NCBI GenBank assembly: GCA_964006375.1
Contig: OZ023263.1
Span: 135,889,563-135,953,562, forward strand
DNA: 64,000 nt
Reading direction: 5' to 3'
Origin: Tillus elongatus
Lineage: Eukaryota; Arthropoda; Insecta; Coleoptera; Cleridae
Shown here: positions 1,801 to 32,609 of the stretch, one piece after another
How the letters are laid out: each line of letters begins with the position of its first letter
Position numbering within the stretch: the stretch's first letter is position 1
The notes under the pieces: model-generated
What the model saw: the letters and a program-made list of their open reading frames with translations, nothing else
Told to the model about the DNA's origin: nothing
The model's database searches: none
Translations under genes and position numbers: made by a program

Positions 1801-1849
1801 TAAGTAGGTATAGATGGGGGGTTCTGGTGCCGCCACCCACGACCGCCCC

Positions 1850-2205
1850 CGACCTAACCCGAGCACAGGGTGGCGGAGCCACTGACCGGACCAGACCTAA
1901 CCCGAGGAGCTCCGCCACCCGGCTCCGAACCTAACCCGAATATCTCCGCCACCTGACGTCGTATTTAACCCGAACAAGTAGCGAACTAACCTGAGATGAC
2001 GTAATCAAATTCAAAAGCCAGCTAACCTGTATTAGGCAAACGAGGAGCCACCATTTAAAATACCATGCGTAATAAGAATTTAATTATTAGTAATAAAATA
2101 TAAACCACTTAGCAAACCTATCTAACCTGAAAAGTATATGAAAATAAGTAATACGTAATAAATATAAACCACCTATCAAAGACACCTAACCTGAGGATTA
2201 CATCA
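1850..2205 (-). repeat. Subterminal GGTTAGG-like motif cluster, left arm
   Basis: On the plus strand the words CCTAACCCGA, CTAACCTGA and close variants recur roughly every 35-90 bp. Near the end they are interleaved with repeats of GGTGGCGGAG or its complement. The core TTAGG equals the common insect telomere unit, but copies are dispersed, not tandem. The mirrored cluster is at about 13210-13565. Confidence 0.6.
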
Positions 2206-2685
2206 AGATAATTAATATAAAGCACTAGGATGAAAAAAATTTACTCGATCGAATTAAATGAAAGCGAAATAAAACGTTATGATTTTATTTCAAATGCTTA
2301 AATATTACACCAGCTGATTAACCGTTATCACAAGTCTTTCCGGTTTAGTTGAGTGGCCAGCTAATAACAGTTTAAATCATCAGCTGGGTGCGGTCATGAC
2401 AATTATGTGTTTAATAATTTTTTGAATCTTACCTAATATGTCACAGGTGTGTTTTCGTTACAGGTGTATATGTGTATAGGTTTAGTGAAGCTAGAAGTTG
2501 TGTTTATTTGTAGATATTTCAGTATATAGAGCTATGGTATGTTGGTGACTTTGTAGCAATATGTGTCTAGTTATTTTTGTGAAAAATCAGAACTAAAACG
2601 TTTTACGAAAATAATCTATGTCTGAAGGCGATGATTATGTCTGGTGAGTTATTGTTTTACTAACAATTTTGTAGAAATAAGTTAC

Positions 2686-2876
2686 ACGCAGCAAGTGCGT
2701 TATGTTAGCGAATTTTTATATACTTTTAAATAGAAGGAAATACCTTTTTATACTTTATCCAATACTGACAGCTTTAATATTATTATTATGGGACGACTGT
2801 TTCACATTATTTTTTTTGATATATAAATGAGCTTAAAACCTGGGTACAGCAAGTGCGTTATGGTAGCGAATTTTCA
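2686..2876 (+). repeat. Two direct copies of an AGCAAGTGCGTTATG motif
   Basis: Copies at 2686-2717 and 2846-2876 share CAGCAAGTGCGTTATG, then TAGCGAATTTT. The same motif forms the terminal inverted repeats of a roughly 300-bp MITE at 13824, 31851 and 37168 and stands alone near 45743. Confidence 0.8.
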
Positions 2877-3049
2877 GATAAATCTTCTGACACTAAATAT
2901 TTGCAAACTTTTACATAAATAAGCTGATACAAAATATTTTAGCATAATTTGTTTTTGCTATATAGTTTTTATATCGTAAACCCGCCAAATTTGTTTCTTA
3001 GACAACGGTTTAAGGTTAGAAATAAAACATTCGATTGTAATACAATTAA

Positions 3050-3055
3050 TTTATT
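3050..3055 (-). terminator. Polyadenylation signal downstream of left MCP
   Basis: AATAAA on the minus strand, about 30 nt past the original MCP stop. The right arm has the same signal at 12056-12061. Confidence 0.55.
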
Positions 3056-3083
3056 AGGAGTAATAAGATTTACATACAAAATA

Positions 3084-4289
3084 TTACATAATGGCTCTTA
3101 CAATACCAGTTAGAGGTTTATATTCAAATACACAATCATGAATAATTAAACAGTAAGCTCTAGTTCTCGGAGCAAAATTGTCTTTACTCATAAACTCCAC
3201 TTTGATGTCGACTGTTGAAGACCTGATGGATTCATTCTAATGTTGACAATCGATTACAAATAGAGCTCGATCTTTAAACTCATCATAATTTAAAAGAGGC
3301 TCCGACATGTTTTTATAGTAAAAACTTTTTTGAAAATCTGTATACATCTGGTAGGCTTCAACATATTTTGATTTTTCGAAATCCATATTCATAGCTTCAT
3401 AAGGGTAGCATTCTGAATTTAGGAACACTCGTAGATCTGCCATACCGATGTTATCGAAGAAGTCGCCTTTTTTGCCTATGTTATCTTTCCGATCTGTTTG
3501 AAATGCTATAATCACATATCTAGGTCTTTCTAAGTTGGTTGCAGTTTTAACAGACCACACATCTTTATTAATATCTCTGAGAGCTGGCAGCTCATATATA
3601 TCCCATTTCCGATATGCGAGAAATATAGATGTGTCTTTTGCTATTTTATCCATCAGTTCCAACTTCATTTGATCGTTTGGAAATACATGTTTTGCTTTTA
3701 AAAACATGTTGGTTACAGTTATCTTAGATATTGCTGTACCAGTACTGTAGTAACTGTTGGCATCATTTCGAGCTCTCGTAAATCGGAAAGTATGTTTACC
3801 ACAGAGAACTCCTTTAAAGTGATGAAAGAAACTGAAGAGGAACCAAAGAGGTAGGAGCAAGTGAAACTTGTTATCGTTTAAGGTGATGTGATCTGATGAT
3901 ACATTCAACCCAGCATTGCTAAGATATTTCGCTTCATTCTTACTAAACGAAAGCAGAGTTTTGATGTTTGTTGTGGTGTATGGATCTCGTACTCGCTCCA
4001 CTTCCTTGTTATTTAATTCATAGATCATTGATTCAAACAGAGCTACTCCTCCGTTATTTGACATGTGGCAGACACCAGTAGCATTTTGTACTGCTAGAGG
4101 TTCCAGAGCACCTTCTATTTTTAGAGCTGACTCTGCTAGACATACGAATGCATCTTGCTGATTGATGTTTATTTCAACTTCATCGCTGTTACCAAACGAT
4201 TTAGTTGATGAATAGTAAGACCTAAGTTCTTCTCGATCAATGGAGTCGTCAAACTTGGGGTCTTTGAATATTTCTAGTTTTGATGACAT
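3084..4289 (-). pseudogene. Major capsid protein, left copy, C-terminally truncated
   Basis: This is the left-arm counterpart of the intact MCP at 10822-12027. The start is the ATG at 4289, mirroring the right copy. A CAG to TAG change creates a stop at 3237-3239 after 350 residues, removing the last 51. The sequence downstream to 3084 still resembles the original frame. A one-base deletion upstream (about 4325-4331) also puts the small overlapping ORF in frame with MCP, giving a longer open frame from 4418. Right and left proteins are otherwise nearly identical. See the right copy for the family assignment. Confidence 0.85.
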
Positions 4290-4409
4290 GATCACCAAGA
4301 CTTTTAAGGAATTCAATATTATCGGAAGAAGTGTATGCTTCAAAGGAGCTGGCTGTACTAAATTTGTTTTGGTATATTCGTCTGCTTTTATATCTTTGAA
4401 GACTAGCAT
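4249..4409 (-). pseudogene. Small overlapping ORF, left copy, frameshifted
   Basis: This matches the 53-codon ORF at 10701-10862. One base is missing at about 4325-4331 relative to the right arm, so the frame runs into the MCP frame instead of overlapping it. The first 27 codons are unchanged. Confidence 0.7.
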
Positions 4410-4410
4410 T

Positions 4411-5127
4411 CTAGGCAATCTTTTTAAGCTCTAAGCGAACAGACACCTCTTCACCTTGAAAGTTTACAGGAACTGAATCTTGATCCATGATGTCGATGCT
4501 TATATTTGAAATCTCTCGTTTGTTTACTGGTAAAGAAATTAGATTCTTAGGTTCTATATCGATTGCATAACCAGGATCGACCATCGGTGCAAACTCATAT
4601 AACGTATGTGAAGGTTTTCCATTATAGTAAGAACCAGACACAATATTAGTTTCTATACGAATCTGTTTAACATCCACTATTTCAACAGGTAAATCAGATT
4701 CATGGAAGACACCTGGTTGAAGAACTTGCTTTGAAAATCCCAGCATTCGTCCAATCGAATCATCAGATTCAAAACTGATACTTGTGAAACACTTTATTTC
4801 ACATCTAATGGTGTTCGGATTAGGTCTTAGAATCAAAGCTAGCTGCTTTTGTTCACGTGTTGCTGTAGCACCAACAAGCTCATTTTGCAGCAAGTTTTCC
4901 AAATGTGTTATTTCATATGCACCAATAGGTATCGTTATGGTTCTCCAAGCAGCTCCTTCTTTTACATAAAATTTATTTTTACCTTTATATATGTTAGGTA
5001 TGTTGTTGTATGTGTGAAAGCTTATCAAAGCAACTGCATAACTACCACCTGGATCTAATTCAATTGGAGGATCGTAGTCTGTCGACAGATGGCAACTGCG
5101 ATCTTTCAACGTGAAGGTTTGCGACAT
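4411..5127 (-). CDS. Penton-like (minor jelly-roll) capsid protein, intact copy
   Basis: A 238-residue protein beginning MSQTFTLKDRS. It lies between the protease and MCP, as penton genes do in Polinton/adintovirus modules. The mix of short beta-prone segments and a length near 240 residues fits a single jelly-roll vertex protein. No catalytic motif is visible. The gene starts 16 nt after the protease stop and ends one base before the small ORF start codon. The right-arm copy is frameshifted, so this is the only intact one. Assignment rests on position, length and the recurrence of its C-terminal DQ(D/N)SVPVNF motif in the divergent locus near 62850. Confidence 0.7.
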   Translation of the reverse strand: MSQTFTLKDRSCHLSTDYDPPIELDPGGSYAVALISFHTYNNIPNIYKGKNKFYVKEGAAWRTITIPIGAYEITHLENLLQNELVGATATREQKQLALILRPNPNTIRCEIKCFTSISFESDDSIGRMLGFSKQVLQPGVFHESDLPVEIVDVKQIRIETNIVSGSYYNGKPSHTLYEFAPMVDPGYAIDIEPKNLISLPVNKREISNISIDIMDQDSVPVNFQGEEVSVRLELKKIA

Positions 5128-5143
5128 TACTGAAACACAGATA

Positions 5144-5473
5144 CTACTGTTTAAGTCTTTTATTTAAAAATTTTAAACATAAGTGGCCACAATTATAAGT
5201 ATTATATTTCTGATACACATCATGATTGTATATTAGAGTAGAGTCTTTAAGGTAACGCTGCAACTCAACTGGCGGCTTCAAGTTTCCATATGAGTCAAAG
5301 TACACGGCTGTGTCACCACGTTTCTTAACTGCAACCCAATGACTGCCAGGTTCCTTGTTTGTTTGCAAATTCATGATACGTGATTCATTCTTGCGTGGCC
5401 CATTCGATGGCAAAGTATCTCGCATGTATACACCTCTAAAATATGGAATTTTCATTTTACCAGCAAATTTCAT
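5144..5473 (-). CDS. Adenain-like cysteine protease, left copy
   Basis: 109 residues from the first ATG (5473). The catalytic pattern of adenovirus-type C5 proteases is visible: His in GSHWVAV (about 45), Asp in YFDSYG (about 60), Cys in NCGHLCLKF (about 95). It would mature virion proteins. The ATG falls inside what looks like the first helix: the same frame is open upstream for 31 codons back to a stop, with a plausible N-terminal segment (PARPLTNEDL) and no ATG. This fits synthesis as a -1 frameshift extension of the PLA2 protein (see 5456-5524). It differs from the right copy by one residue. Confidence 0.85.
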   Translation of the reverse strand: MKFAGKMKIPYFRGVYMRDTLPSNGPRKNESRIMNLQTNKEPGSHWVAVKKRGDTAVYFDSYGNLKPPVELQRYLKDSTLIYNHDVYQKYNTYNCGHLCLKFLNKRLKQ

Positions 5474-5524
5474 AAGATCTTCATTTGTTAGAGGTCTTGC
5501 TGGTAAACATCTTATTCGTTTTTT
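5456..5524 (-). other. Candidate -1 programmed ribosomal frameshift signal, left copy
   Basis: Read on the minus strand: heptamer A_AAA_AAC at 5524-5518 in the PLA2 frame, two codons before its stop, then a 10-nt spacer and a perfect 11-bp stem (TTTACCAGCAA at 5507-5497 with TTGCTGGTAAA at 5466-5456) closing a 30-nt loop. A -1 slip enters exactly the protease frame. Confidence 0.6.
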
Positions 5525-6333
5525 GGTTTCTGCAAATACAATCCATAACCGCTACGCTGCTTCTTCAGATATAATCCTTTACCGAGTCTCTTATACTTTG
5601 GTTTTAATTTCAAACCATTACCTCTCTTACCCATAGCAATAGCCTCCATCATTTTGTTATGACGTTGTTCTTCTTCTAGTTTTTGTTTGGCTGATTTGGC
5701 ATCGTTAACTGCTTTAGCAATGCCTGCAGCACCGCCACCCAGAGCACGTAGCGCTGACAGGCCACCAAAAATTAAAGGTAGTAGTGGAAGGAAGCCTCCG
5801 CTTTTAGGTATTGGAATAACTCGCGGTTTCAGCACATTCTTACGCCCACCAATCTGTTTAACAATTGCGTGAGCGATATCAAACACAGCATTCTCTGATG
5901 GAATAAGATTTCTGTCTTTTAGAACTTCTACAATCAGACTAAGAATGTTTTTAAAGGGAACTTTTTTCCTCGGTTTTGAGTTGCTTACATCAAGACCCAT
6001 ACCGAGCTTTCTTTTAACTTTCATGGTGTTTGTAACACTCCAAGCGGCTAACTTTTCACCAAAACTTGCGTCCTTTGACTTGACTCTCTCCCAAGCTCGA
6101 TTCTCCAACACTTCGTCGGCTCGATGCCTATCACTTAACTCTTTTGATTGAGAGTAAGCGATGTCGTGGTCTCGACAAGCACGATCTAAAGGATTGATAC
6201 CTTGATCACCTCTAGCAAGACGTTCTTTAAGTTTAGTACCCGGGCCACAAAATTGATAACCAGGAACGTGCAGCTCAACAGGTAGCTTGTTAATAGCTGT
6301 GTTTACAAGACCTTCACCCTGTGACACCAACAT
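5512..6333 (-). CDS. Minor capsid protein with parvovirus-type phospholipase A2 domain, left copy
   Basis: 273 residues. Near the N-terminus (about 27-63) are a calcium-loop motif CGPGTKL and the catalytic stretch LDRACRDHDIAYSQ, with the HD dyad and downstream Tyr of secreted/parvoviral VP1 PLA2s. In parvoviruses this domain breaches endosomal membranes. The middle is a basic helical region, followed by a Gly/Ala-rich hydrophobic patch (LLPLIFGG..ALGGGAAGIA in the family pattern) and a Lys/Arg-rich C-terminus. A PLA2 domain in a minor virion protein is known in some adintoviruses. It overlaps the protease frame through the frameshift signal. It differs from the right copy at seven residues, with both motifs kept. 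Confidence 0.88.
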   Translation of the reverse strand: MLVSQGEGLVNTAINKLPVELHVPGYQFCGPGTKLKERLARGDQGINPLDRACRDHDIAYSQSKELSDRHRADEVLENRAWERVKSKDASFGEKLAAWSVTNTMKVKRKLGMGLDVSNSKPRKKVPFKNILSLIVEVLKDRNLIPSENAVFDIAHAIVKQIGGRKNVLKPRVIPIPKSGGFLPLLPLIFGGLSALRALGGGAAGIAKAVNDAKSAKQKLEEEQRHNKMMEAIAMGKRGNGLKLKPKYKRLGKGLYLKKQRSGYGLYLQKPKNE

Positions 6334-6410
6334 TGATACTAACTGTGTGATCCGCTTACATGTCTATATTTATATACATACTCGAAAAATATAGTTTAGT
6401 TCCAGTCAAG
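6334..6410. promoter_or_regulatory. Divergent promoter between PLA2 and ATPase, left copy
   Basis: Only 77 nt separate the PLA2 start (6333) from the likely ATPase start (6411). A central TATATTTATATA lies about 32 nt from one ATG and 35 nt from the other, so one TATA-like element could serve both strands. This makes the upstream in-frame ATG at 6360, which lies before the TATA, an unlikely ATPase start. Confidence 0.55.
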
Positions 6411-7193
6411 ATGCGCACCATCAAACACGCTTCTGTCTTACCTATTACAAATATAGACGATGTTGTTGATACAGCAGAACAACAACTAAGGCATGGTCCT
6501 CTCTTCCCAAACACAGTTAGATGTATCATATGTGGTCCTAGTGGGTGTGGTAAAACAAATGTTATGTTAAGTTTATTGTTTGAACCGAACGGCTTAAAGT
6601 TTGATAACGTGTATGTGTATTCAAAGTCTCTGTATCAACCTAAATATAAGATGTTACAAAAGGTACTGGATGCTACAAAAAGTGTTGGTTATTATCCATA
6701 TAGTGAAAACGATAAAATATTAGATCCAGCAGAAGCCCAGGACAACTCGGTGTTTATATTCGATGATGTGGCTTGTGACAAACAAGATAAAATGAGAGCA
6801 TACTTTAGTATGGGGAGACATAAGAATATTGATTCATTCTATCTCTGTCAAACATATACTCGAATACCCAAACATCTGATACGTGATAACGCTAGAGGCT
6901 GTTCTGGATGAAATTGAACAAAATCCAAAAATAAGTACTAGGGAAATGGCCAGTCATACGGGAGCATCCAATGCAATGAATGCAACGTTTTGATTCTCTT
7001 TAAACAAGATGAAACGAACTTAAAACACATCTATGACGATCATGTGACCACTGATATGGACTTTAAACAATTTAAAAATATATGTTGTCAATGCTGGAAT
7101 GGTAATAAGTATGGTGTGTTGGTGATTGTAAAAGAAAATGATGTAGACAAAGGTAGATATAGAAAAGGATTCGATAGCTATATAGTAATCTAA
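6411..7193 (+). pseudogene. A32/FtsK-like genome-packaging ATPase, left copy, interrupted
   Basis: Starting MRTIKHASVLP at 6411. It has a Walker A motif GPSGCGKTN (about residues 43-51), a Walker B VFIFDD (about 114-119), and a SMGRHKN..F.L.QTYTRIPKHLIRDNA block typical of poxvirus-A32/Polinton packaging ATPases. The frame is broken at 6910 by an in-frame TGA inside a 90-nt insertion (6895-6984) absent from the right copy. Coding resumes at about 6985 and runs to 7193, giving the full C-terminus that the right copy lost. It would pump DNA into capsids. Confidence 0.87.
6895..6984 (+). other. 90-nt insertion in left ATPase with helix-turn-helix-like coding sequence
   Basis: Absent from the right arm. 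In one plus-strand frame it reads AVLDEIEQNPKISTREMASH, like the N-terminal helix-turn-helix region of insect mariner/Tc-type transposase-derived proteins. Its length is a multiple of three, but in the ATPase frame it carries a TGA. No clear target duplication is seen, so filler capture during repair is possible. Confidence 0.65.
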
Positions 7194-7204
7194 TTGGCTA
7201 AAAC

Positions 7205-7440
7205 TGTCTAAAAGGTAGACAACTGTTAGACAGCTGTCTAACAGGACAGCTGTTATACAGGACAGCTGTTAGACAGGACAGCTGTTAGACAGGACAGCTG
7301 TTAGACAGGACAGCTGTTAGACAGGACAGCTGTTAGACAGGACAGCTGTCTAACAGGACAGCTGTAAGACAGCTGTTAGACAGCTGTCTAACAAGACAGC
7401 TGTAAGACAGCTGTCTAACAAGACAGCTGTCTACCAGTTG
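7205..7440. repeat. CAGCTG-rich tandem array, left
   Basis: A degenerate tandem array with a unit of about 16 bp (GGACAGCTGTTAGACA). I count 14 CAGCTG palindromes in roughly 235 bp, many extended to AGACAGCTGTCT. It starts just past the ATPase stop and ends next to the core. The unit's self-complementarity makes it a candidate protein-binding array or origin. Confidence 0.85.
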
Positions 7441-7535
7441 TCGTGATAGATACCTAACACTAGATAGGTAGACATGCATCCACTTCAAATCTAGTACACC
7501 TTAAACCACCAAACAGTTTGTATCTCTTAGCACGA

Positions 7536-7685
7536 TCAACTAACAAGTGGTTTATATAAACGCTGCAGGGCTTCATCATTCTCAGCTCTACCAAGCTTAA
7601 GCATTAAATGTTTTTTTCGAATGTTTTCAGCAAGTTGTAAAATCTTTTTCTTAATTTTTCTCTCTTGGTTACTCATCACCTCCAT
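7536..7685 (-). CDS. Core ORF, probably the 5' part of a gene cut off by the arm junction
   Basis: 49 codons from the ATG at 7685 (or 46 from 7676). The protein is very basic and helical: MSNQERKIKKKILQLAENIR, then RKKHLMLKLGRAENDEALQR. It is the only reading frame in the asymmetric core, and its last few codons run into the left arm before a TGA. Upstream the frame is open into the right arm until a TAG, without an ATG. I do not recognise the family with confidence. Position suggests the start of a further gene of the parental element, truncated when the palindrome formed. Confidence 0.45.
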   Translation of the reverse strand: MEVMSNQERKIKKKILQLAENIRKKHLMLKLGRAENDEALQRLYKPLVS

Positions 7686-7730
7686 CTGGCTAAAGTTATT
7701 TGTTTCAAACAACCTGTCGACCTGATGTAA
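7551..7730. other. Asymmetric core of the palindrome
   Basis: The only part of 1804-13608 without a mirror copy, about 180 bp. Both sides enter the arms at CCACTTGTTAGTTGATCGTGCT (or its complement). It is AT-rich and contains most of the short ORF at 7536-7685. Confidence 0.8.
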
Positions 7731-7847
7731 GCCACTTGTTAGTTGATCGTGCTACGAGATACAAACTGTTTGGTGGTTTAAGGTGTACTAGCTTTGAAGT
7801 GGATGCATGTCTACCTATCTAGTGTTAGGTATCTATCACGACAACTG

Positions 7848-8000
7848 GTAGACAACTGGTAGACAGCTGTCCTGTTAGACAGCTGTCTAACAGCTGTCTT
7901 ACAGCTGTCATGTTAGACAGCTGTCCTGTCTAACAGCTGTCCTGTCTAACAGCTGTCCTGTTAGACAGCTGTCTAACAGTTGTCTACCCTCTTAGACAGT
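7848..8000. repeat. CAGCTG-rich tandem array, right
   Basis: Mirror of the left array but shorter, with 8 CAGCTG palindromes. The size difference shows array contraction or expansion since the arms were copied. Confidence 0.85.
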
Positions 8001-8009
8001 TTTAGCCAA

Positions 8010-8700
8010 TTAGATTACTATATAGCTATCGAATCCTTTTCTATATCTACCTTTGTCTACATCATTTTCTTTTACAATCACCAACACACCATACTTATTA
8101 CCATTCCAGCATTGACAATATATATTTAAATTGTTTAAAGTCCATATCAGTGGTCACATGATCGTCATAGATGTGTTTTAAGTTCGTTTCATCTTGTTTA
8201 AAGAGAATCAAAACGTTAGCGTTATCACGTATCAGATGTTTGGGTATTCGAGTATATGTTTGACAGAGATAGAATGAATCAATATTCTTATATCTCCCCA
8301 TACTAAAGTATGCTCTCATTTTATCTTGTTTGTCACAAGCCACATCATCGAATATAAACACTGAGTTGTCCTGGGCTTCTGCTGGATCTAATATTTTATC
8401 GTTTTCACTATATGGATAATAACCAACACTTTTTGTAGCATCCAGCACCTTTTGTAACATCTTATATTTAGGTTGATACAGAGACTTTGAATACACATAC
8501 ACGTTATCAAACTTTAAGCCGTTCGGTTCAAACAATAAACTTAACATAACATTTGTTTTACCACACCCACTAGGACCACATATGATACATCTAACTGTGT
8601 TTGGGAAGAGAGGACCATGCCTTAGTTGTTGTTCTGCTGTATCAACAACATCGTCTATATTTGTAATAGGTAAGACAGAAGCGTGTTTGATGGTGCGCAT
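8010..8700 (-). pseudogene. A32/FtsK-like packaging ATPase, right copy, frameshifted near the end
   Basis: Starts MRTIKHASVLP at 8700, with Walker A and B as in the left copy and no 90-nt insertion. A small deletion near 8120-8128 (TTTAAATATATATTG where the left has two more bases) shifts the frame. The protein ends at 8098 with about 35 residues lost, while the original C-terminal frame survives to 8010. Neither arm therefore has a complete ATPase, and the two lesions differ. Confidence 0.85.
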
Positions 8701-8777
8701 CTTGACTGGAACTAAACTATATTTTTCGAGTATGTATATAAATATAGACATGTAAGCGGATCACACAGTTAGTATCA
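8701..8777. promoter_or_regulatory. Divergent promoter between ATPase and PLA2, right copy
   Basis: TATATAAATATA at 8735-8746 lies 32 nt before the PLA2 ATG (8778) and 35 nt before the ATPase ATG (8700). It is the same arrangement as in the left arm. Confidence 0.55.
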
Positions 8778-9599
8778 ATGTTGGTGTCACAGGGTGAAGG
8801 TCTTGTAAACACAGCTATTAACAAGCTACCTGTTGAGCTGCACGTTCCTGGTTATCAATTTTGTGGCCCGGGTACTAAACTTAAAGAACGTCTTGCTAGA
8901 GGTGATCAAGGTATCAATCCTTTAGATCGTGCTTGTCGAGACCACGACATCGCTTACTCTCAATCAAAAGAGTTAAGTGATAGGCATCGAGCCGACGAAG
9001 TGTTGGAGAATCGAGCTTGGGAGAGAGTCAAGTCAAAGGACGCAAGTTTTGGTGAAAAGTTAGCCGCTTGGAGTGTTACAAACACCATGAAAGTTAAAAG
9101 AAAGCTCGGTATGGGTCTTGATGTAATCAACTCAAAACCGAGGAAAAAAGTTCCCTTTAAAAACATTCTTAGTCTGATTGGAGAAGTTCTAAAAGACAGA
9201 AATCTTATTCCATCAGAGAATGCTGTGTTTGATATCGCTCACGCAAGTGTTAAACAGATTGGTGGGCGTAAGAATGTGCTGAAACCGCGAGTTATTCCAA
9301 TACCTAAAAGCGGAGGCTTCCTTCCACTACTACCTTTAATTTTTGGTGACCTGTCAGCGCTAGGTGCTCTGGGTGGCGGTGCTGCAGGCATTGCTAAAGC
9401 AGTTAACGATGCCAAATCAGCCAAACAAAAACTAGAAGAAGAAGAACGTCATAACAAAACGATGGAGGCTATTGCTATGGGTAAGAGAGGTAATGGTTTG
9501 AAATTAAAACCAAAGTATAAGAGACTCGGTAAAGGATTATATCTGAAGAAGCAGCGTAGCGGTTATGGATTGTATTTGCAGAAACCAAAAAACGAGTAA
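8778..9599 (+). CDS. Minor capsid protein with parvovirus-type phospholipase A2 domain, right copy
   Basis: 273 residues with the CGPGTKL calcium loop and RACRDHDIAY catalytic motif intact. It differs from the left protein at seven positions, in the middle and Gly/Ala-rich part and not in the PLA2 motifs. It is the first gene of the right outward unit and ends in A_AAA_AAC GAG TAA, the frameshift context leading into the protease. Confidence 0.88.
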   Translation: MLVSQGEGLVNTAINKLPVELHVPGYQFCGPGTKLKERLARGDQGINPLDRACRDHDIAYSQSKELSDRHRADEVLENRAWERVKSKDASFGEKLAAWSVTNTMKVKRKLGMGLDVINSKPRKKVPFKNILSLIGEVLKDRNLIPSENAVFDIAHASVKQIGGRKNVLKPRVIPIPKSGGFLPLLPLIFGDLSALGALGGGAAGIAKAVNDAKSAKQKLEEEERHNKTMEAIAMGKRGNGLKLKPKYKRLGKGLYLKKQRSGYGLYLQKPKNE

Positions 9600-9655
9600 G
9601 ATGTTTACCAGCAAGGCCTCTAACAAATGAAGATCTTATGAAATTTGCTGGTAAA
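9587..9655 (+). other. Candidate -1 programmed ribosomal frameshift signal, right copy
   Basis: A_AAA_AAC at 9587-9593 in the PLA2 frame. The spacer is 9594-9603. Stem strands 9604-9614 (TTTACCAGCAA) and 9645-9655 (TTGCTGGTAAA) pair perfectly over 11 bp around a 30-nt loop. The PLA2 stop is at 9597-9599. The -1 frame is the protease frame and stays open, with no ATG until 9638. Confidence 0.6.
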
Positions 9656-9967
9656 ATGAAAATTCCATATTTTAGAGGTGTATACATGCGAGATACTTTG
9701 CCATCGAATGGGCCACGTAAGAATGAATCACGTATCATGAATTTGCAAACAAACAAGGAACCTGGCAGTCATTGGGTTGCAGTTAAGAAACGTGGTGACA
9801 CAGCCGTGTACTTTGACTCATATGGAAACTTGAAGCCGCCAGTTGAGTTGCAGCGTTACCTTAAAGACTCTACTCTAATATACAATCATAATGTGTATCA
9901 GAAATATAATACCTATAATTGTGGCCACTTATGTTTAAAATTTTTAAATAAAAGACTTAAACAGTAG
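9638..9967 (+). CDS. Adenain-like cysteine protease, right copy
   Basis: 109 residues from the first ATG, one residue different from the left copy (HNVYQ for HDVYQ). The catalytic His, Asp and Cys motifs are intact. Its frame is open upstream to the frameshift heptamer at 9587, so the real N-terminus may come from the PLA2 frame. It ends 16 nt before the penton start. Confidence 0.85.
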   Translation: MKFAGKMKIPYFRGVYMRDTLPSNGPRKNESRIMNLQTNKEPGSHWVAVKKRGDTAVYFDSYGNLKPPVELQRYLKDSTLIYNHNVYQKYNTYNCGHLCLKFLNKRLKQ

Positions 9968-9983
9968 TATCTGTGTTTCAGTC

Positions 9984-10699
9984 ATGTCGCAAACCTTCAC
10001 GTTGAAAGATCGCAGTTGCCATCTGTCGCCAGACTACGATCCTCCAATTGAATTAGATCCAGGTGGTAGTTATGCAGTTGCTTTGATAGGCTTTCACACA
10101 TACAACAACATACCTAACATATATAAGGTAAAAATAAATTTTATGTAAAAGAAGGAGCTGCTTGGAGAACCATAACGATACCTACTGGTGCATATGAAAT
10201 AACACATTTGGAAAACTTGCTGCAAAATGAGCTTGTTGGTGCTACAGCAACACGTGAACAAAAGCAGCTAGCTTTGATTCTAAGACCTAATCCGAACACC
10301 ATTAGATGTGAAATAAAGTGTTTCACAAGTATCAGTTTTGAATCTGATGATTCGATTGGGCGAATGCTGGGATTTTCAAAGCAAGTTCTTCAACCAGGTG
10401 TCTTCCATGAATCTGATTTACCTGTTGAAATAGTGGATGTTAAACACTTTCGTATAGAAACTAATATTGTGTCTGGTTCTTACTATAATGGAAAACCTTC
10501 ACATACGTTATATGAGTTTGCACCGATGGTCGATCCTGGTTATGCAATCGATATAGAACCTAAGAATCTAATTTCTTTACCAGTAAACAAACGAGAGATT
10601 TCAAATATAAGCATCGACATCATGGATCAAGATTCAGTTCCTGTAAACTTTCAAGGTGAAGAGGTGTCTGTTCGCTTAGAGCTTAAAAAGATTGCCTAG
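9984..10699 (+). pseudogene. Penton-like capsid protein, right copy, frameshifted
   Basis: Starts MSQTFTLKDRS at 9984. One A is missing in the stretch at 10122-10130 relative to the left arm, which shifts the frame after about 47 codons. The remaining sequence continues open in the other frame to the stop at 10697-10699. The rest of the protein is nearly identical to the left copy. Confidence 0.85.
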
Positions 10700-10700
10700 A

Positions 10701-10862
10701 ATGCTAGTCTTTAAAGATATAAAAGCAGACGAATATACCAAAACAAATTTAGTACAGCCAGCTCCTTTGAAGCATACACTTCGTTCCGATAATATTGAAT
10801 TCCTTAAAAGTCTTGGTGATCATGTCATCAAAACTAGAAATATTCAAAGACCCCAAGTTTGA
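10701..10862 (+). CDS. Small ORF overlapping the MCP start (intact copy)
   Basis: 53 codons, starting MLVFKDIKADEYTKTNLV one base after the penton stop and overlapping the first 41 nt of MCP in another frame. A diverged locus at 62908 has an ORF in the same place and frame relation, also starting MLV and sharing the NI(E/Q)FLKSLG motif. Conservation across that distance supports real coding. No known domain is visible. A small conserved protein between penton and hexon is plausible for a capsid cement or assembly factor, but the function is unknown. Confidence 0.65.
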   Translation: MLVFKDIKADEYTKTNLVQPAPLKHTLRSDNIEFLKSLGDHVIKTRNIQRPQV

Positions 10863-12027
10863 CGACTCCATTGATCGAGAAGAACTTAGGTCTTACTATT
10901 CATCAACTAAATCGTTTGGTAACAGCGATGAAGTTGAAATAAACATCAATCAGCAAGATGCATTCGTATGTCTAGCAGAGTCAGCTCTAATAATAGAAGG
11001 TGCTCTGGAACCTCTAGCAGTACAAAATGCTACTGGTGTGTGCCACATGTCAAATAACGGAGGAGTAGCTCTGTTTGAATCAATGATCTATGAATTAAAT
11101 AACAAGGAAGTGGAGCGAGTACGAGATCCATACACCACAACAAACATCAAAACTCTGCTTTCGTTTAGTAAGAATGAAGCGAAATCTCTTAGCAATGCTG
11201 GGTTGAATGTATCATCAGATCACATCACCTTAAACGATAACAAGTTTCACTTGCTCCTACCTCTTTGGTTCCTCTTCAGTTTCTTTCATCACTTTAAAGG
11301 AGTTCTCTGTGGTAAACATACTTTCCGATTTACGAGAGCTCGAAAGGATGCCAACAGTTACTACAGTACTGGTACAGCAAGATCTAAGATAACTGTAACC
11401 AACATGTTTTTAAAAGCAAAACATGTATTTCCAAACGATCAAATGAAGTTGGAACTGATGGATAAAATAGCAAAAGACACATCTATATTTCTCGCATATC
11501 GGAAATGGGATATATATGAGCTGCCAGCTCTCAGAGATATTAATAAAGATGTGTGGTCTGTTAAAACTGCAACCAACTTAGAAAGACCTAGATATGTGAT
11601 TATAGCATTTCAAACAGATCGGAAAGATAACATAGGCAAAAAAGGCGACTTCTTCGATAACATCGGTATGGTAGATCTACGAGTGTTCCTAAATTCAGAA
11701 TGCTACCCTTATGAAGCTATGAATATGGATTTCGAAAAATCAAAATATGTTGAAGCCTACCAGATGTATACAGATTTTCAAAAAAGTTTTTACTATAAAA
11801 ACATGTCAGAGCCTCTTTTAAATTATGATGAGTTTAAAGATCGAGCTCTATTTGTAATCGATTGTCAACACCAGAATGAATCCATCAAGTCTTCAACAGT
11901 CGACATCAAAGTGGAGTTTATGAGTAAAGACAATTTTGCTCCGAGAACTAGAGCTTACTGTTTAATTATTCGTGATTGTGTATTTGAATATAAACCTCTA
12001 ACTGGTATTGTAAGAGCCATTATGTAA
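10822..12027 (+). CDS. Major capsid protein (double-jelly-roll type), intact copy
   Basis: 401 residues starting MSSKLEIFKDPKFDDSID. I chose 10822 over the upstream in-frame ATG at 10795 because the divergent homologue at 63026 starts at the same point. Length, position after penton and small ORF, and motifs such as GGVALFESMIYELNN, RFTRAR and the WDIYELPALRD..K.VWSV block match the capsid proteins of arthropod Polinton/adintovirus-like elements. The double jelly-roll fold is inferred from gene context, not seen directly. An AATAAA follows 29 nt after the stop. It is the last gene of the right outward unit and the only full-length MCP. Confidence 0.8.
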   Translation: MSSKLEIFKDPKFDDSIDREELRSYYSSTKSFGNSDEVEININQQDAFVCLAESALIIEGALEPLAVQNATGVCHMSNNGGVALFESMIYELNNKEVERVRDPYTTTNIKTLLSFSKNEAKSLSNAGLNVSSDHITLNDNKFHLLLPLWFLFSFFHHFKGVLCGKHTFRFTRARKDANSYYSTGTARSKITVTNMFLKAKHVFPNDQMKLELMDKIAKDTSIFLAYRKWDIYELPALRDINKDVWSVKTATNLERPRYVIIAFQTDRKDNIGKKGDFFDNIGMVDLRVFLNSECYPYEAMNMDFEKSKYVEAYQMYTDFQKSFYYKNMSEPLLNYDEFKDRALFVIDCQHQNESIKSSTVDIKVEFMSKDNFAPRTRAYCLIIRDCVFEYKPLTGIVRAIM

Positions 12028-12055
12028 TATTTTGTATGTAAATCTTATTACTCCT

Positions 12056-12061
12056 AATAAA
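12056..12061 (+). terminator. Polyadenylation signal downstream of right MCP
   Basis: AATAAA 29 nt after the MCP stop, mirrored in the left arm. Confidence 0.55.
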
Positions 12062-12550
12062 TTAATTGTATTACAATCGAATGTTTTATTTCTAACCTTA
12101 AACCGTTGTCTAAAAAAATTATGCTAAAATATTTTGTATCAGCTTATTTATGTAAAAGTTTGCAAATATTTGGTGTCAGAAGATTTTTCTGAAAATTCGC
12201 TACCATAACCCACTTGCTGTACCCAGGTTTTAAGCTCATTTATATATCAAAAAATAATGTGAAACAGTCGTCCCATAATAATAATATTAAAGCTGTCAGT
12301 ATTGGATAAAGTATAAAAAGGTATTTCCTTCTATTTAAAAGTATATAAAAATTCGCTAACATAACGCACTTGCTGCGTTTAGCTTATTTCTACAAAATTG
12401 TTAGTAAAACAATAACTCACCAGACATAATCATCGCCTTCAGACATAGATTATTTTCGTAAAACGTTTTAGTTCTGATTTTTCACAAAAATAACTAGACA
12501 CATATTGCTACAAAGTCACCAATATACCATAGCTCTATATACTGAAATAT

Positions 12551-12893
12551 ACTTTATACTTTATACTTTATTGGCCGAAATTACACAATACGTCTATACA
12601 GTAAGTCCATTTTGACTTGTGTTGTATATAGTGACATAATTTAAACAGTTTATTCTAAAAATACTTGATACTACATTATCCAAATATGACACTTCGAATT
12701 TTGACAACCCATTTTAAATAAAGTTTTTATACCATTTTTTATTCCATCTTACATTTCCAATCACTGCCTTCATTTACTACTACTCTTTACACATACATCA
12801 TTACTTTCCCATCATCATTCTTCATTTACTTTCCATGTTGATACCAAATTTATAAAATTTCAAACAAAACCAAACCGCTTCATTCTGACAAAA
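12551..12893 (-). mobile_element. Retroposon-like insertion in the right arm only
   Basis: Replaces about 7 nt of the left-arm sequence. On the minus strand it ends in AATAAAG followed by TATAAAG-type short repeats, like the 3' tail of a LINE or SINE. No coding frame is recognised. It entered after the arms were duplicated. Confidence 0.6.
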
Positions 12894-13611
12894 ATAATAA
12901 ACACAACTTCTAGCTTCACTAAACCTATACACATATACACCTGTAACGAAAACACACCTGTGACATATTAGGTAAGATTCAAAAAATTATTAAACACATA
13001 ATTGTCATGACCGCACCCAGCTGATGATTTAAACTGTTATTAGCTGGCCACTAAACTAAACCGGAAAGACTTATGATAACGGTTAATCAGCTGGTGTAAT
13101 ATTTAAGCATTTGAAATAAAATCATAACGTTTTATTTCGCTTTCATTTAATTCGATCGAGTAAATTTTTTTCATCCTAGTGCTTTATATTAATTATCTTG
13201 ATGTAATCCTCAGGTTAGGTGTCTTTGATAGGTGGTTTATATTTATTACGTATTACTTATTTTGATATACTTTTCAGGTTAGATAGGTTTGCTAAGTGGT
13301 TTATATTTTATTACTAATAATTAACTTCTTATTACACATGTTATTTTAACTGGTGGCTCCTCGTTTGCATAATACAGGTTAGTTGGATTTTCAATTTGAT
13401 TACGTCATCTCAGGTCAGTTCGCTAAATCTTCGGGTTAAATACGACGTAAGGTGGTGGAGATATTCGGGTTAGGTTCGGCGTCAGGTGGCGGAGCTCCTC
13501 GGGTTAGGTCGGGTCCGGTCAGTGGCTCCGCCACCCTGTGCTCGGGTTAGGTCGGGGGCGGTCGTGGGTGGTGGGTGGCGGCACCAGAACCCCCCATCTA
13601 TACCTACTCAC

Positions 13612-20846: not shown

Positions 20847-20857
20847 CCCCCATCCTT
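20847..20857 (-). other. Polypurine tract
   Basis: AAGGATGGGGG directly upstream of the 3' LTR on the minus strand; primer for plus-strand DNA synthesis. Confidence 0.8.
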
Positions 20858-22580
20858 AAAACGAAGCTCCTCCTGGAAGCTGAGTTGTTGACCTGCCGGG
20901 TGCCGGTCGAATTTCTGGTTCATCATCTGACACCTGTTTATTTTTGTGAGCCTGAAACCACTTCACGAAAAAATAGATAATCAAAATTAAGAACACAATG
21001 TAAAGCACTATTGTCCATAAACTAGGGGTGTAATAATTTGGGTTCAACTCTCCTGAAATGGGTATGATGGGATGTGCTGAAATATTTTTCAGGTTGAGGG
21101 TCTTCAAGTCGATCTTGAGTGTGGATATATTCTCTTCTTTTAATTTTAGTGACAACTCGTTAAATAACAACGGTTTTCCAAATGTTTTCTCCAGGAACGC
21201 TAATTCTTGTTGTCTAAAGAATATCTTGCAACCCTTTTCCTTCAGCAAGTAGATTCCCTTAAGTTTTCTGGTGACTGTTTCTTTTTGGCAATTAATTTCT
21301 AGAGTTTCTTCTGTGGGAAATACTGCCAAATATTGGTTTATTTCAGGAATAATTTCGATGTTGTTGCTTTTTATGTCCAGTTTGATGAACTGGCATTGAG
21401 AAGAGTTTCCTGTGGTGAGCACTTGTTCTTCGCATAAGGCCCTATGGTTAGTTTGTATTTTATTCGAGCAGTGAAATATTTCGCCTTCGGTACATATGTC
21501 ACTGAGAGCCTTTACAATTTTATTATTGGGGTTTTTAATTGATTTCAATAAGTATTTGACATCAGGAATTATTGTTACGAATTCTGATTCGTATTTTGTT
21601 GGAATTGGGAGTAAATAGTGAAGTTCAAATATTTCCTCATAGTCAATAGGTACAGAAAGAAAATAGTGTATTATATCACCTTCTAATTTACAAGTAATTT
21701 TCATAATGGCTTCAAAATTTAATATGTTTTCGTATTTTAATTCATAAGGAAATTTTTCGTTATAAAATGAGGATATCTTTTGTAATTCTAAAAAAAAATC
21801 ATGAGGTTTCATTACGCTAGGATGAATAGTGTTGAGTTTACAAAAAGTGAGAGAATTTTCAATATCTTGTAGTAAATTAAATATAATGTTGTACATCATA
21901 ATCAATTGATTATACAAGTCTTTAGCAAAAAGAACATTTTGATGCGTAGCCACACCTTTAATTATTTCATTTAATTCGAGTATTCTTGATTTTAATAAAA
22001 TCTGATTATGCCTAATATCCCCAACTGTGGTGTTGAATTTTTGTATAATATTATGACTAACGCTATACTGCATCTTTAACTGTTCTTGTAATCGCAGCTG
22101 GTTTGTACGTAAATGTAACAAGATATCATCAATTCTTTTGCCGTCTGCTGCATCTAAATTACCGGTCACGTATTTAACTAATGTACCAAGTCCATTAACA
22201 AGACCTCTCTTATTTCTAATATTACTAGAATGAGTAAAAATATTTCTTATCTTATCGTTAATATTACTACGGCTATATTGAACTATTTTTTCATAGTTTT
22301 CTAATTCTAGATTATAAACGCTATTATTTACACTAATTCTAATATTACTATACTGGGTGTTTAAATTATTATACTCATCGTATAAAGGTTTTAAATCATA
22401 ATAATGTACGAACGTGTGTTCTGTCCATTGCAACTTTGCGGGGCCTAAATTGATTGGCAATAAGCCAAGGTTATATCTCTTATTTTTGCTCCTTGTCCGA
22501 TTGAGAGGGACCTGGAAGATTTTTAAACTTATAAGTTTGTTTTCTCGGCCTTCTGATATTTGATAAATGAATTTTTTCAT
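20856..22580 (-). CDS. env: Env, F-like fusion glycoprotein of an errantivirus
   Basis: A 574-codon open frame overlapping the end of integrase by 101 nt. At residues 122-125 is a furin-type RNKR site followed by a Gly-rich fusion-peptide-like start (GLVNGLGTLVKYV), as in insect errantivirus Env and baculovirus F proteins. A transmembrane segment (about LWTIVLYIVFLILIIYFFVKW) sits near the C-terminus with a short polar tail. No signal peptide is seen at the first ATG. Errantivirus env mRNAs are spliced, so the true N-terminus probably comes from a leader exon. The frame is open although pol is dead. Whether it is functional cannot be judged from sequence alone. Confidence 0.82.
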   Translation of the reverse strand: MKKFIYQISEGRENKLISLKIFQVPLNRTRSKNKRYNLGLLPINLGPAKLQWTEHTFVHYYDLKPLYDEYNNLNTQYSNIRISVNNSVYNLELENYEKIVQYSRSNINDKIRNIFTHSSNIRNKRGLVNGLGTLVKYVTGNLDAADGKRIDDILLHLRTNQLRLQEQLKMQYSVSHNIIQKFNTTVGDIRHNQILLKSRILELNEIIKGVATHQNVLFAKDLYNQLIMMYNIIFNLLQDIENSLTFCKLNTIHPSVMKPHDFFLELQKISSFYNEKFPYELKYENILNFEAIMKITCKLEGDIIHYFLSVPIDYEEIFELHYLLPIPTKYESEFVTIIPDVKYLLKSIKNPNNKIVKALSDICTEGEIFHCSNKIQTNHRALCEEQVLTTGNSSQCQFIKLDIKSNNIEIIPEINQYLAVFPTEETLEINCQKETVTRKLKGIYLLKEKGCKIFFRQQELAFLEKTFGKPLLFNELSLKLKEENISTLKIDLKTLNLKNISAHPIIPISGELNPNYYTPSLWTIVLYIVFLILIIYFFVKWFQAHKNKQVSDDEPEIRPAPGRSTTQLPGGASF

Positions 22581-23577
22581 GAGTATTGTGATGCTTAGGA
22601 TTAATTTTTGCGGTTTTTAAATCGGTATTTACTGTAGTTATTTTTTCCGGTTTAAATTTATTTTTGGTTTTCGATTGCTTTTGTTTATTTTTAACAAATA
22701 CTTGTTCCTGAATTTCGGGTAGTTCTTCCCTACTCATGTTACACTTTTCAATTACTGTTTGTTTTTTCTCAAGTATTTTCTTATTTAAATTCTCATAGAG
22801 AAGTTTAATCTTCTCTTTGTGGTTTTCTATATAGTTATTAACAATTTGTTTATCTATTTCTAAATTAAAAGGGGAATCTATTCCCAAATGACCAGTTATT
22901 ATTTCATAGGGTTTAAGATTTGTTACCGAGTGTATTGTATTATTGTAGGCTAAAAATGCGTAATTTACTTTTATTTCTATACTATCTTTTTTATATTCAT
23001 TTTGGTTATTAAAAAGCCGTATATGCTCAATTAGAGTAGAATGAAAGCGTTCAATCAGTCCATTTGATTCTGGATGCTGTGAACTAATAAAATGTAATTT
23101 TACTTTATGGAGCTCAAATAATTCTCTAAGTAAAGAGCTCTTAAATTCACCTGCATTATCCAGTATAATTTGTTCTGGTATACAGTTATGTGTAAAGTAC
23201 TTTATTAAATTATTTACTATTTCTATAGCTTGTGCAGAATTTAATTTGTAAGCTTGTGCATATTTTGAAAAAGAATCAATTATAGTTAAAAATTTTACAT
23301 TTTCGAGTGATATGCAATCAATATGTAATATTTGAAAAGGTCTGATTGCAGTGGGCGTGACATTAAATTTTAGATTTAATGGTCGTCGGTCATATTTTGT
23401 TATTTGACAAATTTCACATTCATTAATATAGGTTTGAATAGACTTCCTTTGATTAGGCCAATAGTATTTATTTTTAATTCGATTTTCAGTTTCATCAATC
23501 CCTCTGTGATTAGTCTTACTTTCATGATAATTTTGAATTGTATTTACAATTTCATCTTCGTTTACTATATCGATCAA
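22480..23577 (-). pseudogene. pol: Pol, integrase part
   Basis: Open for 365 codons. Shows the HHCC zinc-binding region (His..His in NYHESKTNHRG, Cys pair in CEICQ) and the DDE core: D in LHIDCI, D in ILDNAGEF, E in NGLIERFHS. It is in the same frame as the RT/RNase H part upstream, separated from it by a single in-frame TAA at 23581-23583. Integrase inserts the cDNA. Confidence 0.85.
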
Positions 23578-23580
23578 TTT

Positions 23581-25790
23581 TTATGTACACTTAATCATAT
23601 TAATTTCTGAGTTCTTAAAATACTTCTGAAGGACAGTACTAAATTTTTCATACAATGGATCTTCAAAATATAAGTAATATTTTACTTTTGGCACTATGTA
23701 ATCTTTTAAAAATTTAATAATTTCTTTCTCAGCATTATTCTTTGAAAACTGTACTAACATTCTTTGCTTATCTTTGAATAATTTTACAATTACCGGTATT
23801 GATGGTGAAAAGTTTACTTCTGAAATAATTATTTGATTTTTACCAAAATTAACTGGACACTCGACTACTGGTACTCCAATTACAGGATTTTCGTGATTTG
23901 AATGAATAGTTATGTCATCGTCGACATTATTATCTATATCTTCAACTTCTACAATTAAAGATTGCGTTTCTTGATTATCGGTATTCTTAGCTTGAATTTC
24001 CTTATTAAAATTTTCCATATATTTAAATATGCCACTTGAATCTTCTGCATTATTGTCACCTAAAATATTTAATTCTATACGGGATAAAGCGTCCGCATTT
24101 TTATTTAATGTTCCTTTTTTATAAGTGATTTCGTATTCATACTCTTCAAGCTTAAGGCGCCATCTAAGCAATTTAGAATTTGGCTCTTTTAACGAGAATA
24201 GCCATTGAAGTGGCTTATGGTCTGTTACTATTTGGAATTTTCTGCCATAAAGATAAGGACGAAAATATTTTACAGCCCACACAATTGCCAATAATTCTTT
24301 CTCAATCGTTGAGTAGTTTGTCTCGGAGGTATTTAAGGTTCTTGACGCGTAAGCGCAAGGTAAATCGACACCAATTTTTCCTTGAGACAATACAGCACCA
24401 ATAGCAAAATTGCTGGCGTCTGTAGTCAGTACAAAAGGCTTTGTGAAATCGGGGTATTGAAGAATCGGTTCGTTAATTAATAATTCTTTACACGTGTTGA
24501 AACAATTTAGATAATCGGGATCCTTTATATCTATAACCGCGTCTTTCTTTAAACATTTAGTAAGGGGTTTTGTAACCTTAGCAAAGTCTTTAATAAATCT
24601 TCTGTAATATCCCAGAAGTCCTAAGAAACCTTTTAATTGTTTCGCATTTTTTGGTATAGGGAAATTTTTAACAGCTTTAATTTTGTCTGGATTGGGCTTT
24701 ACGCCAGATGGCGTCACAATATGTCCGAGATATGCTACCTCCTTTTTTAGGAATTCGGACTTGTCTAATTGTATTTTAAAATTTGCTTTGCTTAACCTCT
24801 CGAACACGTCTCGTAACCGAGATATATATTCTTGTAAACTAGTGCTAAAAATTATAATGTCGTCCAGATAAACTAGACATTTTTCGTTGTGTATTCCACG
24901 TAAAATATTATCGATTACGCGCTGGAACGTGCTTGGACTACATTTCAAGCCCATCTTCTTAAAAATTCATAATGGCCATTCTGCACATTGAACGCGGTTT
25001 TTGGGATGTCATCTTCGAACATTTCGATCTGATGAAATCCGGATGCCAGATCCAATGTGGAAAAATATTGGCATCTACCCAATTTATCTAATAATTCATT
25101 AATATTCGGCAACGGATATTTGTCACCGATAGTTTTTTCGTTAAGCTTTCTATAGTCAATGACTATACGCCATTTACGCTCGCCTGAGGCATCTTGTTTT
25201 TTGGGAACAACCCAGATAGGAGAGGACCACGGAGAGAAAGATGGTCTTATTATTTTTGCTCTAACATTTTTTTTATTTGCTTTTGCACTTCTTTTGTATG
25301 CACTTCTGGATAACGATATGACTTTGTGTAAACGGGTATTTCATCTTTTGTTCGAATTCTATGTTTTATTTCATTAGTAAAAGTTAGGGGTTTATTTTCA
25401 TGATGAAAAATATGTTCGTATTCTTTTATTAACTTCAATATTTCCCGTTTTTCCTCAGAATTCATGTGATTAGTGCGAATTTTTGATAAATCGAACTTAA
25501 AATTGTCTGCATTATACGTGTTAAAATTAGAACTTTGTGTCTGCTCGTATTCATCGAACATTTCTACAGATATTGGTTCATTAAATTTTAAAGTCACCGC
25601 ATCTTCCGATGGGTTAAGAATAGTACAAATTGCCTTATAATTACGTACCGTAGTAACGCATTGTGGTATTTCCAAGTTTTTAATTTTTGTATATGGAATA
25701 ATCACTTCGCCTTCCCTAACATTTTTTACATCTATTTTTATTACCTGTTCGGATCTCGGTTGTACTACTATACAATTCGTACAACGAGCA
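23581..25790 (-). pseudogene. pol: Pol, reverse transcriptase and RNase H part, several frame breaks
   Basis: Ty3/Gypsy RT and RNase H. The RT motif with YLDDI (catalytic Asp pair) is present near 24870, and the RNase H region follows ([15 protein letters not shown], then DALSR). The frame is lost at about 25783 (between protease and RT), at about 25250 (near [11 protein letters not shown]), and at about 24955-24965, where several bases are missing inside a conserved RT motif. Each break is a small indel. The element therefore cannot make Pol. Confidence 0.88.
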
Positions 25791-26190
25791 TTGTTTCTCC
25801 TATTTTATGATAATAAATATTTACTTTTCCATTTGGGAATATAAGCTTGTTAGTTTTAAAACCTACCGAAGCGTTCAATAGTTTTAAATTATCTAAGCCT
25901 AGGAGGCAATCAAAATTGTTATGAAAATCAAATAAGTAGAATTTTAGTGACGTGCCTTTTTTGTGTGCAAACATTTTTGAGCAAGGCACTAATGTGCTAT
26001 ATTTTTCTACAGATGTTCCATGTACCGTGGACACCTGGAAAGGGTCATTTTTAATTGACCTGGAGTAAAATGCATTTGCGATTTCTGGTTTTATAAATGA
26101 CCTCGTGCTCCCTGAGTCAACGAGCACCCTTAAATTATTTTCCGGCCAGATGACGTAAGGTAGTTCGCTAGCGTTATCTGTTAAATTCAT
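25768..26190 (-). pseudogene. pol: Pol, aspartic protease part
   Basis: Carries the retropepsin active site as VDSGSTRSFI (DSG variant) and a downstream CLLGLDNL flap-side motif. The frame begins where gag ends (26190) and is lost at the indel near 25783. Confidence 0.8.
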
Positions 26191-27350: not shown

Positions 27351-27580
27351 AAAGGTACTTACAGCAAAATAATCAATACTGCCATAGGTCCTGATATTCC
27401 TTCAGCACACACAGGAGTATCTTCTCAGAACTGGTTCGTGTTGCTCGATGCACTGGAACACTTGTTACTGAGTCTCTAACACTTCACTTAGCTACTCAAT
27501 CCACCAAGTGTGTTAGAAAGTTCGATAGCTAATTAATCGTAAAAACGAATCAAATATTATCAATATATTCGATTAGCTAT

Positions 27581-30010: not shown

Positions 30011-30181
30011 TTATAATACATGAAGAAAAACTTTGTACCTGCCCCTTGGTAAGCCCATTGCACGCACAGAGCATTGTGAGATTTGGCACAGTTATACTTC
30101 ATATAAATCAGAGCAGAAAAATGAAATGTATGTGTAATATGTGTTACAAATAGATTAAACAATGCTTTGTTCTAATTAGAC

Positions 30182-30554
30182 TCAGATCTGGCGACAGTAA
30201 AAACTTAGATGAGTTTTTTGCCGCTATAACGAATTAAAAGACCTCCCGGATGTGCTGTTTACACACAATCCTCCCAACTGACCTTCCTGACCTGTCCTGG
30301 CATAAGTGTGCCTAATAAAAAGCTAAAAGAAGTAAAAAGGGGAAGGAAAAGTACATTATGCTCGCATGACCTTGATATATGATAGGGTTGATTTTCCTTC
30401 TCCTTTTAGCCTTTAATTAGGTAAACTGATGTTAGGGCAGGTCAGGAAGGTCAGTTGGTAGGATTTTGTGTAAACAGCACGTCAGGGAAGTCTTTTATTT
30501 CGTTAAAACTATAGAAAGCTTATCCAAGTTTTTACTGTCGCGAGACGCTCGTCC
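30182..30554. mobile_element. hAT-like MITE
   Basis: Long imperfect terminal inverted repeats (about 150 bp, sharing GCGACAGTAAAAACTT) and an exact 8-bp flanking duplication AATTAGAC (30174-30181 and 30555-30562). An 8-bp target duplication is typical of hAT elements. Non-coding. Duplicated at 35487-35859. Confidence 0.75.
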
Positions 30555-30779
30555 AATTAGACAGTAGGATTGATTCCCGGTGTCAGGTTTGAGCTGACGG
30601 TTAATATATTAATGTCAATGTAAAACACATATTACTCTATAGCCGAACAGATGTATACGGATGCGTTCATACGTTCATACTGAATATTAAGCTTCAGTTT
30701 TTTCAGTTCTTGAAAAAGTAACTACAAATTTAATTTCAGTAATCGAACGAATAAGATTTTAGTGAAATTTTACTAAACA

Positions 30780-30812
30780 TAACATAATATCTTTGTGATT
30801 TTTAGTAAATTT

Positions 30813-30903
<91 letters not shown>

Positions 30904-32605: not shown

Positions 32606-32609
32606 TGAA

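Follow-up and report, generated by a model that had tools for sequence, protein, structure and literature searches.

A palindromic element with a doubled Polinton-like capsid gene block in the genome of the beetle Tillus elongatus

Introduction

Polintons, or Mavericks (Eupolintoviridae, adintoviruses), are defined by terminal inverted repeats that start with 5'-AG and by a target site duplication of 6 bp. Their penton and major capsid protein (MCP) genes are described as adjacent (PMC4028283). The Mavericks of the moth genus Spodoptera are listed with a POLB of 1162 residues and an INT of 310 residues, and their table of open reading frames (ORFs) is arranged CAP(PLA2)-PRO-ORF6-ORF7; integrase and ORF2 apparently lie between the ATPase and CAP, and no PY-type capsid protein is reported by the authors (PMC5803895). 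Here, we describe an 11.8-kb element in a 64-kb stretch of the genome of the beetle Tillus elongatus (Coleoptera, Cleridae; assembly GCA_964006375.1, contig OZ023263.1, positions 135,889,563 to 135,953,562), which we call the window. With the insect group of Polintons/Mavericks, this element shares a double-jelly-roll MCP, a penton, a Ulp1/adenain-like protease, a phospholipase A2 (PLA2) protein, an A32-like ATPase, paired termini and insertion into a chromosome. Unlike them, it yielded no protein-primed type B DNA polymerase (PolB) and no integrase among the ORFs scanned, and it has two capsid blocks arranged head to head. We consider it probable that the element is defective and derives from the genome of an insect Polinton/Maverick (adintovirus-like), as a palindrome made by fold-back and inserted later.

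Structure of the palindrome

Self-comparison of the window delimited an inverted element spanning positions 1803..13608. The left arm (1803..7550, forward strand, 5748 bp) and the right arm (7732..13608, reverse strand, 5877 bp) were defined by blastn and an alignment of the arms to each other. The limits of that alignment leave an asymmetric, non-palindromic core of 181 bp (7551..7731), and the arms are flush at their inner limits, both ending at the same base. Repeat finding recovered the arms as five inverted pairs, each between 310 and 1926 nt long and 97–99% identical; blastn recovered them in pieces of 4382 columns (97.9% identity), 713 columns (96.1%) and 574 columns (83.1%). At such identity, chance is ruled out as the source of the inverted arms. 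In the element, a stretch carrying capsid genes and a Polinton-like terminus forms an inverted dimer. The first-pass annotation had proposed a giant palindrome at 1804..13608, with arms of about 5.5 kb around a core of 180 bp. The palindrome was borne out by both methods, but the element begins at 1803 and both arms are longer than proposed.

The left terminus reads AGTAGGTATAG (1803..1813, forward strand) and is mirrored at the right end by CTATACCTACT (13598..13608, forward strand). By direct reading, the Polinton-like termini AGTAGG...CCTACT lie where the inverted repeat ends on both sides, and the terminal inverted repeats begin with 5'-AG, as is characteristic of Polintons/Mavericks. Read outward, the left flank is TG-rich and the right flank CA-rich; the inverted repeat is not continued into either, and the flanks are not inverted copies of each other. 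The candidate target duplication CACATA/CACACA matches at five of six positions, but a match of this degree is also shown by 161 of 441 six-base pairs from the CA-rich flanks. A self-inverted repeat of 153 bp, resembling a miniature inverted-repeat transposable element, adjoins the left end of the element (1648-1800) within a TA/TG microsatellite.

CAGCTG-rich tandem repeats lie in the left (7229..7430) and right (7863..7973) arms. Short inverted repeats were abundant in the right arm: 40 pairs of 11 nt were counted, whereas 20 shuffles averaged 1.2. Over the 64-kb window, neither Rfam (gathering scores) nor a tRNA scan gave a match.

Capsid genes

Genes for the MCP, penton, protease, PLA2 protein and packaging ATPase are present in both arms, and each is open in at least one of them. 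The MCP, which is the gene closest to the terminus, is open in the right arm (10822..12027, forward strand, 401 amino acids (aa); PF21738, E = 2.1e-74). An AlphaFold model of this protein had a mean pLDDT of 89.9, and Foldseek matched it to double-jelly-roll capsid proteins (best E 8.6e-15), including those of iridovirus, chlorovirus, Sputnik, faustovirus and mavirus; the queries in databases and structure searches started one codon downstream of the ORF start at 10822. The predicted structure supports the double-jelly-roll fold by which Polintons/Mavericks are recognized. The left copy (3237..4289, reverse strand; PF21738, E = 3.1e-59) comprises 350 of the 401 residues before a stop codon, with the frame resuming at 3087-3236.

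Adjoining the MCP is a single-jelly-roll penton (minor capsid protein), another hallmark of Polintons/Mavericks. It is open in the left arm (4411..5127, reverse strand, 238 aa), where it yielded 99 homologues and no Pfam family above the cut-off. Its model (pLDDT 91.6) had the mavirus penton 6g41 as its best Foldseek match in the PDB (E 2.3e-10), followed by the adenovirus penton base, which supports a penton of the mavirus type. In the right arm, the ORF covers only the part at 10208..10699 (forward strand), with a 1-bp indel upstream. The adenain-like cysteine protease, likewise typical of Polintons/Mavericks, is open in both arms (left, 5144..5473, reverse strand, 109 aa; right, 9638..9967, forward strand); its Pfam score (PF02902, E = 7.5e-5, 23.1 bits) lies just over the cut-off of 20.7 bits. 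The PLA2-domain protein is also open in both (left, 5512..6333, reverse strand; right, 8778..9599, forward strand; 273 aa each). The left copy matched PF08398 (E = 6.3e-12), and the right copy weakly resembled VP1 chains of parvovirus capsids (best E 0.0015). The ATPase is open in the right arm (8098..8751, reverse strand, 217 aa) and belongs to the A32/FtsK packaging type found in Polintons/Mavericks (PF04665 Pox_A32, E = 2.5e-8, above the cut-off). The sole PHROG match with E below 0.001 was that of the ATPase to PHROG 2666, terminase large subunit (E = 9e-4), and the PHROGs gave no other useful match. In the left arm, the ATPase is open (6360..6911, forward strand) as far as a disrupting 90-bp insertion.

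Damage is distributed over the two arms: in the left arm, the MCP has its premature stop and the ATPase has the 90-bp insertion and a 2-bp indel, and in the right arm, the penton has its 1-bp indel. The first-pass annotation had assigned a whole module to each arm, including a separate small ORF. All five genes do occur in both arms, but each arm has broken genes, and the small ORF was not substantiated, the 109-aa frame being the protease.

Ancestry and gene order

The homologue search for the MCP returned 89 sequences, most of them without a named source; those with a named source were from insects. The best named homologues came from the beetles Sitophilus oryzae and Molorchus minor (48% identity), and the best overall had 51% identity. 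No relatives were found by tblastn of IMG/VR with the ATPase and the MCP alignment or of GTDB contigs with the MCP alignment. The adjacency of penton and MCP is common to the element and Polintons as described (PMC4028283). Moreover, the order PLA2-PRO-penton-MCP-terminus resembles the CAP-PRO-ORF6-ORF7 of the Spodoptera table (PMC5803895), if, as we infer, that table follows gene order and its ORF7 is the MCP. An arm therefore resembles an insect Polinton at its capsid end.

Another Polinton relic, itself diverged, is located at 62822-63999 and is cut off by the window edge. Its gene order is that of the element: a penton end (28 residues, 54% identity) comes first and is followed by an MCP (33% identity over 288 columns).

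Replication and integration genes

We screened the ORFs of the element for the genes that Polintons use for replication and integration. Ten ORFs of at least 100 aa were present; six main proteins were scanned against Pfam, the other four being mirror copies. In addition, 12 of the 41 small ORFs in the spacers and core were scanned, namely the core ORF, one neighbour of it and ten spacer ORFs; the longest small ORF has 88 aa, compared with the 1162 and 310 residues of POLB and INT in Spodoptera Mavericks. In this set, no domain of a protein-primed PolB and none of a retrovirus-type integrase was detected, and the element contains no long unexplained ORF. The proposed lack of polymerase and integrase genes thus holds for the ORFs scanned. 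The integrase (rve) match noted with Pfam in the window, at 22480-23577, falls outside the palindrome, in a gypsy-type element.

One ORF begins in the core (7542..7685, reverse strand, delimited from the ORF list and the junction limits). It runs for 48 residues, followed by one codon and a stop, and extends four codons past the left junction. It had no homologue in the length range searched and no Pfam family above the cut-off. It is a candidate for a cut-off gene, perhaps a Polinton gene, whose product may resemble a conserved Polinton protein.

Divergence between the arms

In a global alignment, the arms differed at 79 of 5535 aligned columns (1.4%; 39 transitions and 40 transversions) and by 11 indels. 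The largest indels were a stretch of 340 bp present only in the right arm (12553..12892) and four stretches present only in the left arm: the 90-bp insertion in the ATPase (6894..6983, forward strand), 64 bp and 16 bp within the tandem repeats, and 45 bp at 2949..2993. The 90-bp insertion contains a helix-turn-helix-like reading frame (PF13412, E = 0.0012, below the cut-off) and is perhaps a scrap of a transposase gene.

Between the arms, we counted nine synonymous changes at 833 sites and 22 nonsynonymous changes at 2872 sites (ratio of nonsynonymous to synonymous changes per site, pN/pS, 0.71), with no difference between the two classes (p = 0.39). This ratio is near neutral and fits decay after insertion. 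Mutation rates in insects are about 3e-9 per site per generation; at that rate and if there was no conversion, a divergence of 1–1.7% implies some 2–3 million generations. This would date the insertion rather than the origin of the palindrome, because replication would re-make identical arms.

Other features of the window

A gypsy-type long terminal repeat (LTR) element occupies 20856-27401. Pfam identified frames for reverse transcriptase/RNase H and integrase. Gag- and protease-like frames and a 586-aa frame resembling an errantivirus env were recognized by eye, the last of these without a Pfam family above the cut-off. A second LTR retrotransposon, with zinc-knuckle and RNase H frames, is located at 54554-58723, and a DDE_1 transposase frame at 48491-49036 (PF03184, E = 1.1e-15). 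A tandem duplication of about 5.3–5.5 kb spans 30126-40934 (30126-35435 versus 35431-40934, aligned in two pieces at 97–98% identity).

Discussion

Three origins had been offered for the palindrome in the first-pass annotation. The best fit is a viral genome end joined head to head as a dimer, because the MCP is nearest the terminus, the inner ends are flush, the core is asymmetric and the ends are of Polinton type. Derivation by deletion from an element with very long terminal repeats would require a parent of that kind, and none was found in the IMG/VR and GTDB scans. The palindrome probably formed on a free linear molecule, since the repeat stops at the termini and the flanks are not included. 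In the sequence of events that we propose, synthesis of a strand protein-primed at the capsid-side terminus would break off before completion, within the gene that follows the ATPase. At a short inverted repeat, around CCACTTGTTAG/CTAACAAGTGG with a spacing of about 181 nt, the 3' end of this strand would fold back and copy the strand as far as its own terminus. A further round of replication would open this hairpin to give a linear palindrome that has a terminus at both of its ends, and PolB and integrase of another, helper Polinton could replicate and insert it, in keeping with the general features of protein-primed replication. Decay would have followed insertion. As the core ORF ends within four codons past the left junction, the right junction appears to be native and the left one the turn-around. 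The original length of the CCACTTGTTAG/CTAACAAGTGG repeat is unreadable, since everything beyond it is palindromic. Experimental support has been described in yeast for inverted dimers arising from short interrupted inverted repeats (PMC4689423). Fold-back at breaks is described as using microhomology, with far smaller insertions, mostly of 5–34 bp (PMC11724301).

Several observations weigh against this fold-back origin. The target duplication is uninformative, as 161 of the 441 background pairs in the flanks match equally well. The proposed fold-back site is not unique, inverted repeats being common in the right arm. For want of a parental single-arm Polinton to compare, the assignment of the native side of the junction is tentative, and the core ORF is without a confirmed homologue in Pfam or in the limited length range of the homologue search. 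Nonsynonymous divergence between the arms was lower than noncoding divergence (p = 0.013), while synonymous divergence was not (p = 0.26), and the outer 1.4 kb diverged more than the inside (33/1351 versus 34/3907, p = 3e-5). Plain decay does not account for this pattern without gene conversion or weak constraint. Finally, the gene-order match to Spodoptera is partial, given the integrase and ORF2 between ATPase and CAP and the fact that the authors report no PY-type capsid protein (PMC5803895).

The lower divergence of the inner arms could also be expected of the third origin offered, a mobile capsid-only satellite, i.e., a propagating palindrome that carries virion genes only, whose mirrored arms keep each other repaired and which helper Polintons replicate, package and insert. 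The Polinton-like termini at both ends and the five genes open in one arm or the other agree with such a satellite. However, it is known from one copy, at this locus, the pN/pS of its arms is near neutral, and the complementary survival of the genes fits chance, the changes being so few; we regard it as unlikely. An assembly or library chimera joining two real, inverted, non-identical Polinton copies is similarly doubtful. The junction is known from assembled sequence and turns around at a short inverted repeat, as amplification chimeras do, but two independent copies would need to join flush at the same base. A fold-back of a single molecule would leave identical arms, contrary to the 79 substitutions and 11 indels (including those of 340 and 90 bp), and on these grounds we rejected a single-read artefact. 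Two independent insertions were ruled out as well, both arms ending at the same base.

Two further explanations were considered. Fold-back inversions at short repeats are described in chromosomes (PMC4689423, PMC11724301), and a break in an integrated Polinton could have led to a chromosomal inverted duplication. Flanking host DNA would then be expected in the copy, but the inverted repeat ends at both element termini and inverted host flanks, which we looked for in the window, were absent; we consider this explanation very unlikely. A Polinton lineage with capsid genes in terminal repeats of >5 kb that lost PolB and integrase from the middle would likewise predict two arms and a small unique core. 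No such lineage appeared in the IMG/VR or GTDB scans, a weak objection as those scans gave no relatives whatever, and all that the core shows is the beginning of a single ORF, which matched neither PolB nor integrase; we consider this derivation very unlikely too.

Comparable derivatives are on record for other linear replicons. The symmetric recombinant (SYREC) of adenovirus 12 has a palindromic genome with one viral end at both ends, as the element does, but has host DNA in its middle and was reportedly packaged in culture. For kalilo, a protein-primed plasmid, Vierula and Bertrand reportedly described hairpin derivatives with deletions in 1992 (cited in PMC11071308), and the yeast linear plasmid pGKL1 has a hairpin derivative. 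In these, one end of a linear protein-primed replicon becomes a hairpin or inverted dimer and another part is lost. They are free plasmids, whereas the element is integrated and keeps virion genes; its inverted duplication is observed directly, and the remaining Polinton genome would have been lost. A limited literature search, judged by titles and abstract openings, found no report of a palindromic Polinton. The yeast cytoplasmic linear plasmids, offshoots of Polintons, are reduced derivatives like the element, but are described as having lost the morphogenesis module and kept replication, the reverse of what is seen here (PMC11071308).

It is difficult to make a palindrome with its ends precisely at viral termini other than on a free linear genome, and the element is therefore indirect evidence that this insect Polinton replicated outside the chromosome. 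Its structure is also indirect evidence that insertion was possible for a molecule lacking PolB and integrase. If other copies were found to share its junctions, it would represent a capsid-only satellite of an animal virus-like element. Such a satellite, if real, would be the reverse of the virus-derived plasmids that dropped the capsid and retained replication.

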